A DNA stretch of 64,000 bases from Enterococcus rotai (lineage in GTDB: Bacteria; Bacillota; Bacilli; Lactobacillales; Enterococcaceae). Position 1 is the stretch's first letter; every line of letters starts with the position of its first letter. Below, in pieces: positions 8,640-63,161 of the stretch. The stretch covers positions 3,287,091 to 3,351,090 of the forward strand of contig NZ_CP013655.1 of NCBI RefSeq assembly GCF_001465345.1, read 5' to 3'. The position numbers were made by a program, and so were the translations under genes. The notes beneath the pieces were generated by a model that was not told the DNA's origin, did not search any database, and saw nothing but the letters and a program-made list of their open reading frames with translations.

Positions 8640-11243
8640 TTATTCTGCTATCGGTTCATTTTTAAATACTAATTGTCCATTTAATAACGTAATCGTTACT
8701 TTTGTTTTTGGTAATACACGTCCTGACACGATTTCTTTCGCTAAAGGCGTCTCTACTTCTTTAGTAATAAAACGTTTCAGTGGACGAGCACCATAAGCTG
8801 GATCATAGCCACTTTCCGCAATCCAAGTTTTTGCTTCATCAGAAACCACTAATTCGATTTCTTGCTGTTCTAAACGTCGCGCTAATTGAGCTGTCATTTT
8901 GCCAATGATCCCTTTGACATTATCCAAACTTAATGGTGTGAACAATATCGTATCATCAATTCTATTTAAGAATTCTGGTTTGAAATGACCGCGTAATATG
9001 GTCATTACTTGTTCCTCTACTGATTCTGGAATCGTACCTTCTGGTGTAACCCCTTCAAGCAACAATTGAGAACCAATATTACTCGTCATGATCAATACAG
9101 TATTTTTGAAATCAACCACACGCCCTTTAGAATCAGTCAAACGACCATCATCTAACACTTGGAGTAAAATGTTAAATACGTCAGGATGCGCTTTTTCAAT
9201 TTCATCTAGCAACACGATGGTATAAGGATTACGACGAACGGCCTCTGTTAATTGCCCACCTTCTTCATAACCAATGTAGCCTGGAGGTGCACCGACTAAA
9301 CGAGAGACACTATGTTTTTCCATATACTCACTCATATCGATCCGCACCATATGCTCTTCTGAATCAAACAAATCTTCTGCTAACGCTTTAGCAAGTTCTG
9401 TCTTACCAACACCAGTTGGTCCTAAGAATAGGAATGATCCCAAAGGACGATCTGGATCTTGTAACCCAGCACGAGAGCGAATCACGGCATCACTAACAGC
9501 ATCGACCGCTTCATCTTGACCAATCACACGTTTGTGTAAAGTCTCGTTCAACTTCATTAGTTTTTCTCGTTCCCCTTCAACCAGTTTCGTTACAGGGATT
9601 CCGGTTAAGCGACCAACTACTTGAGCAATTTCATTTTCAGTCACGGCTTCTTGCACCATACGGACATTTTCTTCGTCATTTTTTGCTTCAAGTTGTTTTA
9701 ATTCCTCTTCTAATTGAGGAATTGTGCCATGACGAAGGACAGCTGCTCGTTCTAAATCGTAATTGTTTTCAGCATCTTCTAACTCATGTTTTGCTTTATC
9801 GATTTCGCCTCGTTTATTGCTAACAGCATTGACTTCTTCTTTTTCAGTTTCCCATTGCATCTTCATGGCGTTCGCTTCTTCACGAAGATCAGCCAGTTCT
9901 TCTTGCAACGCGTTTAGACGTTTTTTACTAGCATCATCAGATTCTTTCTTCAAGGCAGCTTCTTCGATTTCTAATTGCATTAAACGACGAGTTACTTGAT
10001 CAAGCTCTGTTGGCATTGAATTCATTTCCACACGAATCGTAGCACTTGCTTCATCAACTAAGTCAATGGCTTTATCTGGTAAAAAACGATCCGTGATATA
10101 ACGGTCAGATAACGTTGCTGCAGCAACTAAAGCATTGTCATGGATGTTGACACTATGATGGATTTCAAAACGTTCCTTTAACCCACGCAAAATACTGATC
10201 GTATCTTCAACAGTCGGCTCTTTTACCAAAACTTTTTGGAAACGGCGTTCTAACGCTTTATCTTTTTCCATATATTGACGATATTCATCTAATGTTGTTG
10301 CACCGATCAAATGTAATTCACCACGAGCCAACATGGGTTTCAATAAGTTACCAGCATCCATACTACCTTCTGTTTTTCCTGCTCCAACGATATTATGGAT
10401 TTCATCAATGAATAAAATGATGCGCCCCTCACTCTTTTTAACCTCTTTTAAAACAGCTTTTAAACGTTCTTCAAATTCGCCACGGAATTTGGCTCCAGCG
10501 ATCAACGCTCCCATATCTAACGAAAAGATTGTCTTATCCTTTAAGTTTTCCGGTACATCTTTGCGCACGATTCGTTGGGCTAAGCCTTCGACGATAGCTG
10601 TTTTACCAACGCCTGGTTCGCCGATCAAAACAGGGTTATTTTTTGTTTTTCGTGAAAGAATTCGAACAACATCACGGATTTCTTCATCACGACCAATGAT
10701 CGGATCTTGATTGCCGCTTTTAACCTGCTGTACTAAGTCAACACCATATTTTTCTAATGCTTTGTATTGTTCTTCTTGATTTTGAGAAGTCACATGATCT
10801 CCTCCTCTCATGTCTTCGATATTTTTACGTAGTTCTTTTTCTGTGATTCCTTGACTAGTCAAATACTTGGTCAAGCGATAATTTTTCAATTTCATCAACG
10901 CTAAAATCACGATTTCAGTTGCTAGAAATTCATCTTGAAATGATTCTCTCAACTTATCTGCTTCACCTAATAAGTTAAACAGATTTTGACTCATACTTTG
11001 CCCATATTGGATATTGCTTCCTTGAATACTAGGGTATTCATCGATTGCTTGGTCGATTTCCCGTTCAAAAGTCTCGACGTCAACGCCTGCATCTGTATAA
11101 AAATTACGACCAAAGTGATTCGGTTGTAAAAAAATCTTCCATAAATGAGCAATATCGATTTCCTGATGGTGGCGAGTTACTGCGACCTGTTGTGCCTCAG
11201 CAATGGCCTCTTGTAAAGTTGTTGTCATTTTTTCGATATTCAT
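8640..11243 (-). CDS. clpB: ATP-dependent disaggregase ClpB (Hsp100)
   Basis: A hexameric AAA+ chaperone that works with DnaK to pull proteins out of aggregates after heat stress. The 867 residues give an N-domain (1-145), AAA1 with GEPGVGKTA near residue 205, a coiled-coil middle domain around 410-530 with heptad-like Glu/Lys/Leu sequence, and AAA2 with GPTGVGKTE near residue 605. There is no ClpP-binding loop. An in-frame ATG 90 bp further upstream exists, but the start at 11243 ([12 protein letters not shown]) has a perfect AGGAGG 7 nt ahead and fits the family. Transcription comes from a CtsR-controlled promoter about 370 bp upstream, so the mRNA carries a long leader with two structured repeats. 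Confidence 0.97.
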
Positions 11244-11262
11244 AACATTACCTCCTAAAATT

Positions 11263-11384
11263 AAAAGCGTAATAAGCCCGCTTAGTCTCGAATGAAAAAT
11301 AGGAAAAATCGATTGAGACGCTTTTTGGCTCACTCTATTTTTATCTTTTTTCCGAGAGACTGGCTTATGGAGCTAGATAGATAG
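11263..11384 (-). repeat. Structured intergenic repeat, copy 1 (clpB leader)
   Basis: One of two tandem ~120-bp units. Read on the + strand it starts AAAAGCGTAATAAGCC and ends GAGCTAGATAG. Nested complementary segments are TAAGCC (11273-11278) with GGCTTA (11362-11367), AGTCTC (11284-11289) with GAGACT (11356-11361), AAAAATAG with CTATTTTT, and TGAG (11314-11317) with CTCA (11329-11332). In clpB mRNA its complement lies just before the AGGAGG site. Confidence 0.8.
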
Positions 11385-11501
11385 AAGCGTAATAAGCCTG
11401 TTTAGTCTTGACTGGAAAATAGGAAAAATCGATTGAGACGCTTTTTGGCTCACTCTATTTTTATTTTTTTCCGAAAGGCTAGCTCGTAAAGCTAGATAAC
11501 A
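11385..11501 (-). repeat. Structured intergenic repeat, copy 2 (clpB leader)
   Basis: Tandem copy of the preceding unit with a 120-bp period. The inner part (AAAATAGGAAAAATCGATTG to CTCACTCTATTTTTAT) is nearly identical. The second stem becomes AGTCTT with AAGGCT, still pairing through one G-U. The outer stem is degenerate. The unit ends GCTAGATAACAC. Confidence 0.78.
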
Positions 11502-42275: not shown

Positions 42276-42920
42276 TTAATGGGTCGTTCCTGTATTTTCT
42301 TCAATATCCACTTCTGTTGTTACTGCTGCCTCAACTGCATAAATCAATGAATCCGCAATTGTTTGGATTGGCATAGAAGGTGTTCCTACAGGTCGATCAA
42401 TCACCTGTGTTGGTTCAAACGGAACATGGATAAATCCACCTTTAACACCTGAGAATTCTTTATCGATCATGTACAATAAACGGTACATGATATCATTACA
42501 GACAAATGTGCCGGCAGTATATGAAATATACGCTGGCAAGCCATGATCCTGAACATTTTTCATCATCGCTTTGATTGGTAGCGATGTAAAATAAGCAGTC
42601 TCACCATCCTCTTCCAGTTTGACTCCGATTGGTTGATTGCCTTTATTATCTGGAATTCTCGCTTCGGCTAAGTTGATTGCTACTCGTTCGAAAGAAACAG
42701 CGCTACGTCCGCCAGCCTGACCAACACAAATAACAATATCGGGCTGATGCTCTTTCATTGAAGCCTCTAACACCTTAGCACTCTCTTCAAAAACAGTTGG
42801 TATTTCTATTTTGATAATTTGTGCTCCTGCTACCTCATTTGGGATCAATTTTACCGCTTCATAAGCCGGATTAACGGTGTCTCCACCAAATGGATCAAAA
42901 CCTGTGATTAAAACTTTCAT
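42276..42920 (-). CDS. pcp: Pyrrolidone-carboxylate (pyroglutamyl) peptidase
   Basis: A cysteine peptidase (C15) that removes N-terminal pyroglutamate from peptides, releasing 5-oxoproline. The 214 residues are standard. The catalytic set is Glu78 (VSFERVAINLAEA), Cys141 (TAGTFVCNDIMY) and His165 (GFIHVPF); the N-terminus MKVLITGFDPFGG is typical. AAGGAGG precedes the ATG and directly follows two tandem structured repeats. The DUF979 and DUF969 membrane genes upstream are frequent neighbours of pcp and may move its substrate or product. Confidence 0.96.
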   Translation of the reverse strand: MKVLITGFDPFGGDTVNPAYEAVKLIPNEVAGAQIIKIEIPTVFEESAKVLEASMKEHQPDIVICVGQAGGRSAVSFERVAINLAEARIPDNKGNQPIGVKLEEDGETAYFTSLPIKAMMKNVQDHGLPAYISYTAGTFVCNDIMYRLLYMIDKEFSGVKGGFIHVPFEPTQVIDRPVGTPSMPIQTIADSLIYAVEAAVTTEVDIEENTGTTH

Positions 42921-42941
42921 TACAAATTACCTCCTTATTTT

Positions 42942-43062
42942 AAAAGCGCAGCGGGCTCGTTCAGCTCTGACAGAAAAATAGGAAAATATGTTTGTGGCGC
43001 TTTTGGCCACAAGCAGATTTTATCTTTTTTCCGAAGAGCTAGCCCGTGTAGCTAGATAACAT
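42942..43062 (-). repeat. Structured intergenic repeat, copy 3 (pcp leader)
   Basis: Same element as the clpB leader copies, but with altered, still complementary stems: CGGGCT (42952-42957) with AGCCCG (43041-43046), AGCTCT (42963-42968) with AGAGCT (43035-43040), and TTGTGGC (42992-42998) with GCCACAA (43006-43012). The inner AGAAAAATAGGAAAA and TATCTTTTTTCCGA segments are conserved. The gene-proximal edge lies about 6 bp from the pcp ribosome site. Confidence 0.83.
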
Positions 43063-43184
43063 TTAAAGCGCAGCGGGCTCGTTCAGTCTCGACTGAAAAA
43101 TAGGGAAAATTGATTGAGGTGCTTTTTGCCTCACTCCATTTTCATCTTTTTTCCGAGAGACTAGCCCGCATAGCTAGAGAACAT
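43063..43184 (-). repeat. Structured intergenic repeat, copy 4 (pcp leader)
   Basis: Tandem to copy 3 with a 122-bp period. Stems: CGGGCT with AGCCCG, AGTCTCG (43085-43091) with the CGAGAGACT segment (43154-43162), and TGAGG (43115-43119) with CCTCA (43129-43133). The last stem is one pair longer than in the clpB copies, with both sides changed. Confidence 0.83.
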
Positions 43185-43207
43185 TAATTATAGTCTCAAC
43201 TCAACAA

Positions 43208-44152
43208 TTATTTAAATAAAATCATATAAACAACTTGGAATACAAACATAAAAATCGCAATAAACCATTGATTTTTGATTACTCCATATTTATCTTTCAT
43301 TTCCAACATCGCAACAGGAACCACGTTAAAGTTTGCTGCCATCGGTGTCAGTAATGTTCCACAGTAGCCGCAAGTTAGTGCCAGCATACCGATCAAAGCA
43401 GGATTTGCGCCTTGTGCAAAGACAAATGGTGCACCGATTCCGACTGTCATCACAGTAATCGCCGCAAAAGCGTTCCCCATGATGATCGTAAATAGCATCA
43501 TCCCGAAAGCATAAATAATAATTCCGACTACTACATTTCCTTGTGGTACAACTTTTCCGACAGCAGAAGAAATCACCGTGCCAACACCAGCACTCGTGAA
43601 CACCGCTCCTAATGAAGCTAAGAGCATTGGCAACATACTCAAAGGACCAACCGTCCCAAGCATATCTGCTGCATCATCCAAAAATGTCGTAGGCTTATTA
43701 TTTTTAGAATAAAACATCAAGATCAAAATTGCGACGAAAACACCCACTCCGACACCAACTAAGGCACCAAGTTTAGTAAATAAGGCAAAGATGATCGCAA
43801 AGACACCAATACTTAGAGCAGGGATGAAAATTTTCATACCTAATTTATCTGACATTTGTTGCATATACTCTTTAGATGGTAGTTTAGTTTTTCCTTTACT
43901 CACCTTTTTCAAAACAGCTGGAATCGTCATTGAAAAAATCAGGATCCCACTAATCAGTGATGGAATAAAGCGTCCACCTGAGATCACTACTCCTAATGTA
44001 CACCAAAAATAGCCAGTTCCATAGCGATGAGGATTACTTTTATCTAGAAAATTCTTAATTCCAGTATAAATCAAAATCAAGCCCATCAAGATATATAAAA
44101 CTTCTAATAATTTTTCACCAAGCAAGACCTCTGGGTTCATAAAATAACTCAT
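43208..44152 (-). CDS. DUF979 family membrane protein
   Basis: A 314-residue integral membrane protein with about nine hydrophobic segments. Recognisable family stretches are LLEVLYILMGLILIYTGIKN at the N-terminus, YFWCTLGVVISGGRFIP, and the late GYCGTLLTPMAANFNVVPVA. It resembles half of an ion-coupled carrier; DUF969 likely provides the other half. It overlaps the DUF969 gene by 4 bp (ATGA), which implies a complex. pcp follows after a repeat-filled 287-bp gap. Function is not established; transport of pyroglutamate or pyroglutamyl peptides is inferred from the neighbour. Confidence 0.85.
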   Translation of the reverse strand: MSYFMNPEVLLGEKLLEVLYILMGLILIYTGIKNFLDKSNPHRYGTGYFWCTLGVVISGGRFIPSLISGILIFSMTIPAVLKKVSKGKTKLPSKEYMQQMSDKLGMKIFIPALSIGVFAIIFALFTKLGALVGVGVGVFVAILILMFYSKNNKPTTFLDDAADMLGTVGPLSMLPMLLASLGAVFTSAGVGTVISSAVGKVVPQGNVVVGIIIYAFGMMLFTIIMGNAFAAITVMTVGIGAPFVFAQGANPALIGMLALTCGYCGTLLTPMAANFNVVPVAMLEMKDKYGVIKNQWFIAIFMFVFQVVYMILFK

Positions 44153-49291: not shown

Positions 49292-49396
49292 CAACCATTT
49301 ATCGCACTGCATCAGGAGACTAGTAAAATGAAAGGAGTAACGTATAATAGATTTTATATAAATTGAATTTGTTTTGTACAGTTTGGAGGAACCAAT

Positions 49397-50026
49397 TTGA
49401 AAAAAATACTCTGTATTCATGCCCACTTTTCTAATATTCCTTATTTAACACAACTATTTCAAGATAAACCGACGATTGTGTTGGAACATTATGTTATACC
49501 TGATTTTCTGGAACAGATCACCACAAAAAGTTTGATACATTTTATTGAAGAAAAAACAACAGAAGCAGTTATCGGCATCCTTATTACCTGCACGATGTAT
49601 TCTAATTTGGTCAAGCCAAACGTCATCAATCATGTACCCGTGATGCGGGTAGAAGACCCGCTTGTTGCTCATATTGTGACGAATCCTCACAAAAAAAAGT
49701 TGGTGTTTTCAAACCCTAAAACAGTGGATCAGACGGTGAATAAAATTGAAACTCTTTACAATGAAAAAAGTTTAGCACTTGATTATGAGGTTTTCATTGT
49801 TCCAAATGCCTTTGACTTGATTCTAACAAACCAGAAAACAGCTTATCAAAAAGCCTTATTTGAGTATTTATTCTCAATGAACAATACGTTTTCAGGCGAT
49901 ATTTACTTAATGCAACTTTCCATGTCGATCCTCTCAAAAGAACAGCTAATGACTCTTGATTATTCCGTATTCACGATCCTAGATTCTTTAGATGCAAGGA
50001 TAAAAAACAATTTTAACTATAATTAG
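49397..50026 (+). CDS. Asp/Glu racemase-like protein
   Basis: A 209-residue protein. ILCIHAHFSNIPYLTQLFQD is followed by ILITCTMYSNLV and the VPVMRVEDPLVAHIV segment, the order seen in Asp/Glu/hydantoin racemases around the first catalytic cysteine (here in TCT). The second half-site usually with Cys reads YLMQLSMSILS, so the second cysteine is missing. It may therefore not racemise amino acids by the two-Cys mechanism. The start is TTG with TTGGAGGA 6 nt ahead. It stands alone, divergent from the lsa gene. Confidence 0.6.
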   Translation: MKKILCIHAHFSNIPYLTQLFQDKPTIVLEHYVIPDFLEQITTKSLIHFIEEKTTEAVIGILITCTMYSNLVKPNVINHVPVMRVEDPLVAHIVTNPHKKKLVFSNPKTVDQTVNKIETLYNEKSLALDYEVFIVPNAFDLILTNQKTAYQKALFEYLFSMNNTFSGDIYLMQLSMSILSKEQLMTLDYSVFTILDSLDARIKNNFNYN

Positions 50027-62406: not shown

Positions 62407-63009
62407 TTATTCAATTTCTTTATGATGACGACGAATTCCTGTCATCGTTGTAGGGGTAAATAGCTTAGGATCGATTCTAAGAAGCAATAGCAGCACAACT
62501 GATGTTACAATTGCAGTTGCTACCCCACTTAACCCATTCATTACAAATGAAAACAACCATGGATTCATTCCCCAAAGTGCAAAGCTCCCCCAGAAAATCA
62601 CGCCGGCTATAAAGTGCCAAATATAACGCATCAGTGTGCCAAAAAATGAAGCATAGATAATGATGCGGCTACTCTTCTTATATTCTTCATTTCGAATTGC
62701 TTGTTGCAACTTGTCACTATAAACGCCTGCGACCCCTGCAAAACCAAAAGCTAAAATATACTCAATAATCACTTGGGCTGGCATTAAATAATAGACTTGT
62801 GCTAAAGGAAAGTGTAACAATCCCCAAATAAATGCTGAAAAGAAGCCAGCTTTGGTTCCTCTCCGTAAAGCATAAAGCGTGATAGGGATCATCCCTAATG
62901 ATATTGAAAAACTACTACCAATATTCGTTGGAATAAAGGACAACACCATTGCAATAGCTGCCACGATCGTTCCTTCGATCCAAACTCGTAACTCTGATGT
63001 TCTTTGCAT
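62407..63009 (-). CDS. thiT: Thiamine-specific ECF S component ThiT
   Basis: The high-affinity thiamine-binding membrane subunit that works with the shared EcfT/EcfA1A2 module. The 200 residues have six membrane segments; LRVWIEGTIVAAIAMVLSFI and SISLGMIPITLYALRRGTKA match ThiT. The Trp and Tyr-rich thiamine-site region shows as AQVYYLMPAQVIIEYILAF and IWHFIAGVIFWG. A TPP riboswitch in the leader confirms the substrate. GGGAGGA precedes the ATG. It is monocistronic; its EcfT/A partners must lie elsewhere. Confidence 0.95.
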   Translation of the reverse strand: MQRTSELRVWIEGTIVAAIAMVLSFIPTNIGSSFSISLGMIPITLYALRRGTKAGFFSAFIWGLLHFPLAQVYYLMPAQVIIEYILAFGFAGVAGVYSDKLQQAIRNEEYKKSSRIIIYASFFGTLMRYIWHFIAGVIFWGSFALWGMNPWLFSFVMNGLSGVATAIVTSVVLLLLLRIDPKLFTPTTMTGIRRHHKEIE

Positions 63010-63071
63010 AAAAAAATCCTCCCTCTAGAACGACCGATTCACAAAGGAGGAGTAAAAGTTGCTATTTACTC

Positions 63072-63161
63072 CATCACAATTCCTACGCTCGTACTAACGA
63101 ACAGGTTCGAAGGGTTTAGAGTTATTACTCATTCTCAGCCATGGCTCCCCTTTGTGATGGG
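63072..63161 (-). ncRNA. TPP riboswitch (THI element) upstream of thiT
   Basis: On the leftward strand P1 is CCATCACAA / TTGTGATGG (9 bp). The conserved core follows: GGGGAGCC...GGCTGAGA, then ACCCTTCGAACCTG, and a short GTTAGTAC arm before GCGTAGGAA. This is the canonical TPP aptamer order. Downstream, GGAGTAAA/TTTACTCC (63050-63057 with 63066-63073) overlaps the end of P1, and TCCTCC can pair with the thiT ribosome site. No T-run terminator is present, so translational control is likely. Confidence 0.95.

Follow-up and report, generated by a model that had tools for sequence, protein, structure and literature searches.

The window analysed here, a stretch of 64,000 nucleotides of the Enterococcus rotai genome (contig NZ_CP013655.1, positions 3,287,091 to 3,351,090), contains two pairs of hairpin-forming units, each directly upstream of a gene. 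We take these genes to be pcp and clpB, names that follow the original prediction (Table 1). The pcp array consists of two 122-nt units arranged head to tail (42940-43183), which are 78% identical to each other when compared ungapped and 81-82% by BLAST, and the second pair, at clpB, spans 11261-11501. At both genes the unit strand is the strand shown, and the pcp mRNA would carry its reverse complement. On the strand shown, the pcp units fold better than 200 of 200 shuffled sequences, both as RNA and as DNA (z of -4.4 to -5.9), while on the opposite strand, for which RNA folding was computed, the z values are -4.4 and -3.4, with 0 and 2 of the 200 shuffles doing equally well. The original prediction had described a leader of pcp in which the stems differ between copies on both sides. 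All of the stem 2 and outer stem sequences that it quoted can be read in the DNA, that is, AGCTCT/AGAGCT (copy 3) and AGTCTC/GAGACT (copies 1 and 4) for stem 2, and CGGGCT/AGCCCG (copies 3 and 4) and TAAGCC/GGCTTA (copy 1) for the outer stem. In copy 2 (11381-11501), the outer stem is partly broken, a point absent from the original prediction.

Table 1. Hairpin units and neighbouring features at pcp and clpB (window coordinates; copies numbered as in the original prediction)
Feature	Position	Strand	Evidence
Hairpin unit, copy 3, adjoining the pcp Shine-Dalgarno sequence	42940..43061	+	Sequence, folding, BLAST; covariance model R1, 139.6 bits
Hairpin unit, copy 4, distal in the pcp array	43062..43183	+	Sequence, folding, BLAST; R1, 136.4 bits
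pcp Shine-Dalgarno (SD) sequence AAGGAGG	42930..42936	-	Sequence; gap of 5 nt between GGAGG and array
pcp (presumed pyrrolidone-carboxylate peptidase), downstream of array	42276..42920	-	ORF; orthologues in 19/22 same-genus genomes
TATAAT-like hexamer immediately upstream of the pcp array	43187..43192	-	Sequence
Putative membrane-protein gene, other side of the pcp array	43208-44152	-	Look of the sequence
Hairpin unit, copy 1, adjoining the clpB SD	11261..11382	+	R1, 128.1 bits
Hairpin unit, copy 2, distal in the clpB array	11381..11501	+	R1, 108.8 bits
clpB SD sequence TAGGAGG	11251..11257	-	Sequence; gap of 5 nt between GGAGG and array
clpB-like gene, downstream of array	8640..11243	-	ORF, counted from the ATG after the SD

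Every unit forms a single long hairpin of 122 nt, and the tandem step is also about 122 nt. The stems of the hairpin vary by compensatory change, while three features are kept, namely a 5-nt bulge on one side, an apical loop (GCTYTTT), and an internal loop (GAC / CCGA). We measured covariation over a named structure of 41 pairs in 78 distinct copies from the E. rotai genome, using 500 shuffled and a series of slid alignments as controls. Paired cells amount to 91.6% in the 78 copies, compared to 81.9% after shuffling and at most 52.2% after sliding, and cells with a two-sided change number 407, compared to 152.8 and 45-85, respectively. The number of pairs showing two-sided change, which is the weakest of these measures, is 24, against a mean of 20.0 in the shuffled controls (6 of 500 reach 24) and at most 17 in the slid controls, the latter carrying most weight since the copies are related to each other. 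That double-sided changes preserve the folding is therefore strongly supported.

Long inverted repeats are known to undergo arm correction by template switching or gene conversion, a process that could keep the arms of a quasi-palindrome complementary with no selection on folding. While the stem changes, which by eye often come in blocks, are in line with such a process, it does not account for the conservation of the bulge, of both loops and of a noncanonical pair, G43.T84, which is retained in 228 of 255 copies. Since it would not be expected to produce a strand asymmetry among mismatches either (see below), we regard arm correction as an improbable explanation. Some units depart from the common architecture. 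Three loci (L002:1696-1817, L024:1501-1622, and L039:1819-1940) display a composite 3' arm, in which an extra palindrome (CCTTCAATCCTTAGAGCTTTAGCTCTTAGGA..) takes the place of part of the outer stem. A second subfamily, whose unit ends are GCTTTTCT / TGATCCAGC, forms arrays in E. rotai (3276478-3276599) and in its near relative G007 (C1:832907-833484), where it follows a terminator-like hairpin and does not abut an SD.

The units at pcp and clpB belong to a large family. BLAST against the E. rotai genome returned 62 matches, and a covariance model (R1) built from 78 aligned copies identified at least 149 full-length units (149 matches among 150 candidates scored). These form 94 arrays, comprising 51 single units, 34 doubles, 7 triples, one array of four and one of five units. 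Within the genus, 17 of 22 genomes were matched by BLAST and all 22 by R1. Across the Enterococcaceae, searched with stricter filters and 34 candidates scored per genome, R1 found a match in 62 of 105 genomes (10 of 17 genera), with five or more matches in 34 genomes (6 genera) and a single match, sometimes weak, in 18. G089, a far relative with a 2.1-Mb genome, carries 78 very densely packed matches that retain the architecture in a very different sequence, starting with CGGTGTCT and ending with GACAACC or GACATCC plus T. No unit was matched at E 1e-5 in plasmid and phage records, a set that may omit records close to E. rotai. Comparison with Rfam, covering the window region and ten further loci, gave no family at the gathering threshold, and the weak hits look like chance. 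The tandem repeat with compensatory stems is thus confirmed as real and as part of a genome-wide repeat, so that copies 3 and 4 do not constitute a leader specific to pcp. Two of the three outcomes that would have refuted the original prediction, a lack of further copies and a lack of covarying pairs, are not what we observed. The edge of the window offers a further example of family sequences, since positions 1-175 hold what remains of a unit end and, after it, a second module, which we call 'B' (GGTAACAAC..TGTTTCAAAGCAAAAGCG), beside the 3' end of a gene at 177-1403 that we take to be arginine-deiminase-like, and a complete unit lies just outside (genome positions 3286866-3286987). Elsewhere in the window, Rfam recognizes a TPP riboswitch (63063-63161, minus strand) upstream of the ORF at 62407-63009.

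Most arrays also share a common position. In the orientation of the original prediction, they mostly have an SD and a start codon, in reverse complement, ahead of their left end. We applied a strict test requiring an SD motif no more than 9 nt from the array end and a start codon opening an ORF no shorter than 60 codons. The left end passes in 61 of 94 arrays (34 of the 41 in the first BLAST set and 27 of the remaining 53), the right end in none of the 94, and random positions of the examined stretches in 118 of 20,000. The typical junction reads GCTTTTAA-A-T(T/A)A-GGAGG, with the gene reading away from the array, and the transcript would carry the reverse complement of the unit. GGAGG lies 5 nt from the unit end in 41 of 56 measured cases, 4 nt in 11, and at other distances in 4, and the three bases before it are TTA or TAA in 50 of the 61 genes adjacent to an array or module, compared to 8 of 52 other genes. 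Among the 33 arrays failing the strict test, by eye, three sit at AGGGGG-type SDs and one at an SD whose start codon could not be placed. Another 16 run on into more units or the 'B' module, after which 13 reach an SD and one is masked. For the remaining 13 of the 94 arrays, our tests showed no SD, either at the array end or beyond a run-on, and seven of these have another unit end (GCTTTTCT and similar). The SD-linked arrays thus total 61 by the strict test and about 77 when run-on and AGGGGG cases are included. Two arrays, 918549 and 1053963, lie upstream of an oppositely oriented gene, without touching its SD.

Could this abutment be a mere by-product of insertion anywhere between genes, with only those insertions surviving that leave the SD intact? 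The varied intergenic positions of relatives outside the genus would fit this explanation. However, if survival were the only factor, distances should be widely spread, whereas 52 of the 56 measured are 4 or 5 nt and TWA is frequent before GGAGG, which makes this the least probable of the explanations that we considered. In other species of the genus, abutment was seen at 23 of 28 loci, corresponding to 21 of 26 distinct arrays, which had been chosen because they matched the query best. In G006, a divergent genome of the same genus, none of five loci lies within 26 nt of an SD, and in five genomes of other genera only two of 24 loci do, these being one and the same array. Since relatives elsewhere are seldom found at SDs, SD targeting does not characterize the family as a whole, and abutment is, as far as sampled, specific to one clade within the genus. 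Going by the names at the tsf locus, this clade includes E. quebecensis, E. moraviensis, E. crotali, E. ureasiticus, E. plantarum, E. caccae, and E. termitis. Units are present in nine of 80 named tsf loci, only partially in E. ureilyticus, and a tenth locus shows a weak match of 40 nt. Among the papers listed by our literature search, none deals with hairpin arrays abutting SDs in Enterococcus, although one may exist.

Fixed spacing directly before the SDs of dozens of genes is also an argument for the main rival to the reading that we favor below, in which the arrays are functional mRNA leader modules (5' stabilizers or translation modulators) whose transcript folds beside the SD and aids expression. 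In keeping with this, both strands fold well, and the unit end CUUUUA pairs weakly with UAGGAG of the SD, a pairing that follows from the fixed unit end. Moreover, there is a slight excess of -10-like boxes within 25 nt upstream of the arrays (13 of 40, compared to 9, 7, 8, and 4 farther out, with the better of two filters, and 15 of 55, compared to 13, 10, 9, and 8, with an imperfect one). Because this excess is weak at most, we do not claim that arrays extend from the transcription start to the SD. The predicted accessibility of the SD at 61 arrays is the same with real units as with shuffled ones (0.38 and 0.36), a point against the leader explanation. Neither is there an evident regulon. 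NCBIfam, applied to 30 of 38 proteins with a downstream ORF (some were unmatched, and among the 38 ORFs three seem to be spurious or to begin within a module), names a mixed set including fabD, gmk, yebC, galT, nagB, ddl, nfo, aroC, codY, hslV, trxA, pstC, parts of PTS systems, and others. Two more genes downstream of arrays are presumably glyQ and tsf, the latter having been traced via its orthologues. A guide-like pairing of the unit's conserved TAGGA with the CCTCCTA target was considered as well and rejected, since by eye the same motif occurs in some relatives that are not at SDs.

Which strand is under constraint can be judged from the mismatches in the stems, where G.T and A.C on one strand correspond to A.C and G.T on the other. 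In 260 distinct units from the genus, the unit strand shows 346 G.T and 206 A.C mismatches, and 27 positions lean toward G.T while six lean toward A.C. This excess is moderate and the copies are not independent. The count omits the paired positions 43-84 and 59-67, the inclusion of which would strengthen the bias. Because G.T on the unit strand is A.C in the mRNA, the constraint leans toward the strand opposite to the mRNA, which speaks against a leader acting as RNA and suggests that selection for folding acts on the antisense strand of the gene. The usual deamination linked to transcription or replication would push the mismatch bias the opposite way.

Comparison of species reveals that arrays change while their places do not. 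At pcp and tsf, the proteins of E. rotai and G007 are 97-100% identical, and at eight of eight correctly paired E. rotai loci, G007 has units at the same gene. Nevertheless, E. rotai has one extra complete unit at glyQ, and G007 one at tsf, both on the SD side and with matching flanks, while at codY the interior of the unit differs between an unchanged junction and gene. Across the genus, tsf leaders contain from zero to four unit matches, with at least one in 16 of 22 genomes and none in six, one of which (G017) shows an apparent short remnant. At pcp, a unit match is found in only five of the 19 genomes that have the gene, the others showing, partly as judged by eye, short or decayed remains or nothing recognizable. 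The persistence of arrays at the same genes while units change (eight of eight loci in G007, 16 of 22 genomes at tsf) would suit functional leaders, and their scarcity at pcp would not. On the evidence as a whole, we consider the leader explanation unlikely, though it deserves to be taken seriously. As for the age of the copies, BLAST pairs between loci of one genome have a median identity of 78% (n = 4404), and most cross-locus copies are old. Ten pairs, however, reach 95-97.5%, and because they are as similar as orthologous units of E. rotai and G007 (0.92-0.98 where recognizable), some copies have recently moved or been converted. Simple tandem duplication occurs but leaves most arrays unexplained, since adjacent units have a mean identity of 0.82 (31 pairs, five above 0.9) compared to 0.77 for random pairs (395 pairs, three above 0.9). 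Nor did we see by eye a target-site duplication, the TWA before GGAGG having no consistent recurrence at the far end of arrays. Arrays turn over at fixed places, and insertion, recombination between unit ends, or gene conversion all fit. The same two genomes also differ at 49342-49898 of the window, where G007 lacks, between matching flanks, about 550 nt that cover a large part of the ORF at 49397-50026.

The original prediction did not recognize the repeat among known enterococcal elements, but a relative with the same layout exists in E. faecalis. In the 747-kb record NZ_CP143580.1, R1 gave 40 matches at E values up to 10 (best score, 37.6 bits), none of which reaches the high scores of the clade with SD arrays. 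The seven full-length copies that we examined are 125 nt long and match R1 over positions 1-122, with approximate E values of 2e-7 to 5e-4 (best, 2.1e-7). They share the bulge, the internal loop, and the apical loop and, by eye, are followed by a second, terminator-like hairpin. In four of the seven, 0-9 nt separate the copy from a preceding stop codon, the unit strand being the sense strand, and a fifth copy shares 2 nt with a stop codon (annotated neighbors were covered for three copies). EFAR elements, which we take to be the same as Efa-1, are mostly 170 bp long, adopt an L-shape, and are inserted into stem-loop targets. Efa-1 is described as a 163-bp repeat with 65 copies, of type I (taken as intergenic), forming a pair of adjacent stem-loops (PMC2267715), and "EFAR elements in Enterococci" are classed as MITEs (PMC3733652). 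By length, two hairpins, and layout, the E. faecalis copies fit Efa-1/EFAR, an assignment made by matching to the published description.

Our units resemble Efa-1/EFAR, whose first hairpin of about 125 nt likewise has an outer stem, a one-sided 5-nt bulge, a middle stem, an internal loop (GA.../...CCGA), an A/T stem and a GCTCTTT apical loop, and whose many copies are likewise dispersed between genes. In contrast to the 163 bp and two adjacent stem-loops given for Efa-1, however, the units have 122 nt, one hairpin, and a tandem layout. While the E. faecalis copies are single and mostly 3' of stop codons, the units form arrays before SDs, 61 of 94 abutting one where EFAR would use stem-loop targets, and the sequences have diverged. 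Since the units have neither the two stem-loops nor the target features, we file them as a related new variant rather than as members of Efa-1/EFAR. The copies and compensatory stems of the original prediction are thus real, but its label of a pcp leader needs correcting, and the repeat does have a known enterococcal relative. The folding strand is the same in E. faecalis, where the direction of transcription is different, which we take as support for a role at the DNA level. Judging from these sequences, a role of the DNA strand would be the only one common to the SD arrays and the E. faecalis setting. Apart from the units, a difference between E. rotai and G007 at about 33640 of the window looks like an Efa-1/EFAR insertion polymorphism. 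In place of a short hairpin in the window, G007 has about 230 nt (GAGGTTGGGACAGAA...TTCTGTCCCAACCTC), and about half of this insert matches Enterococcus plasmid records, one record overlapping an E. faecalis copy found by R1.

Other known systems are more distant. BOX elements are modular and can repeat their inner module, and we know of no SD-abutting habit for either BOX or RUP. Both of these Streptococcus pneumoniae repeats, which PMC2267715 lists, are short, noncoding and structured like our units, a likeness of description. Cis-regulatory leaders in Rfam, such as T-boxes and riboswitches, are likewise found before genes, yet none matched at threshold. IS200/IS605-type transposases act on folded single strands. 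REP and IS200-IS605-derived elements, linked to such transposases (PMC3733652), are also palindromic, but REPs measure 20-40 nt compared to 122 nt for the units. A Y1 transposase does not seem to be the mobilizer, since Y1_Tnp (PF01797) is absent from ten of 22 same-genus genomes, its sole match in E. rotai has an in-frame stop, and its presence does not track that of the family. The search for a mobilizing enzyme, which covered this domain, found none.

Taken together, we slightly favor the reading that the units are a MITE-like hairpin element related to Efa-1/EFAR, with a site preference on the SD side and selection for folding of a DNA strand. Units would reach their place because they prefer TWAGGAGG, which reads CCTCCTWA on the unit strand, and would then accumulate, be lost, or be exchanged at the junction between unit and SD. 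The unit strand may have to fold as single-stranded DNA for propagation, which would explain why folding is kept. Consequences for the mRNA, for example that a stable hairpin comes to lie just 5' of the ribosome-binding site, would be secondary. Against a mobile element, the gain and loss seen at glyQ and tsf could also result from recombination between the short repeated unit ends. More tentatively, and with somewhat less than an even chance in our estimation, the element may home in one orientation to TWAGGAGG and stack unit by unit before the SDs of about 60 to 80 unrelated genes in E. rotai and, judging by samples, of many genes in 16 related Enterococcus species.

What reads as new here is the SD-abutting, tandem habit, the related Efa-1/EFAR hairpin being already known. 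The usual description of MITEs and REPs in bacteria is that they are scattered between genes, and arrays that stop 4-5 nt before the GGAGG of dozens of genes would represent an unusual choice of target for a mobile element. The family constitutes a large natural set in which to distinguish selection for structure at the DNA level from that at the RNA level, and, thanks to close species pairs that differ by one unit at glyQ and tsf, the mechanism and the consequences for expression can both be tested directly. If it is mobile, an SD-abutting family could rewire many leaders in one go and, if it does home to TWAGGAGG, would be specialized on the translation start signal.
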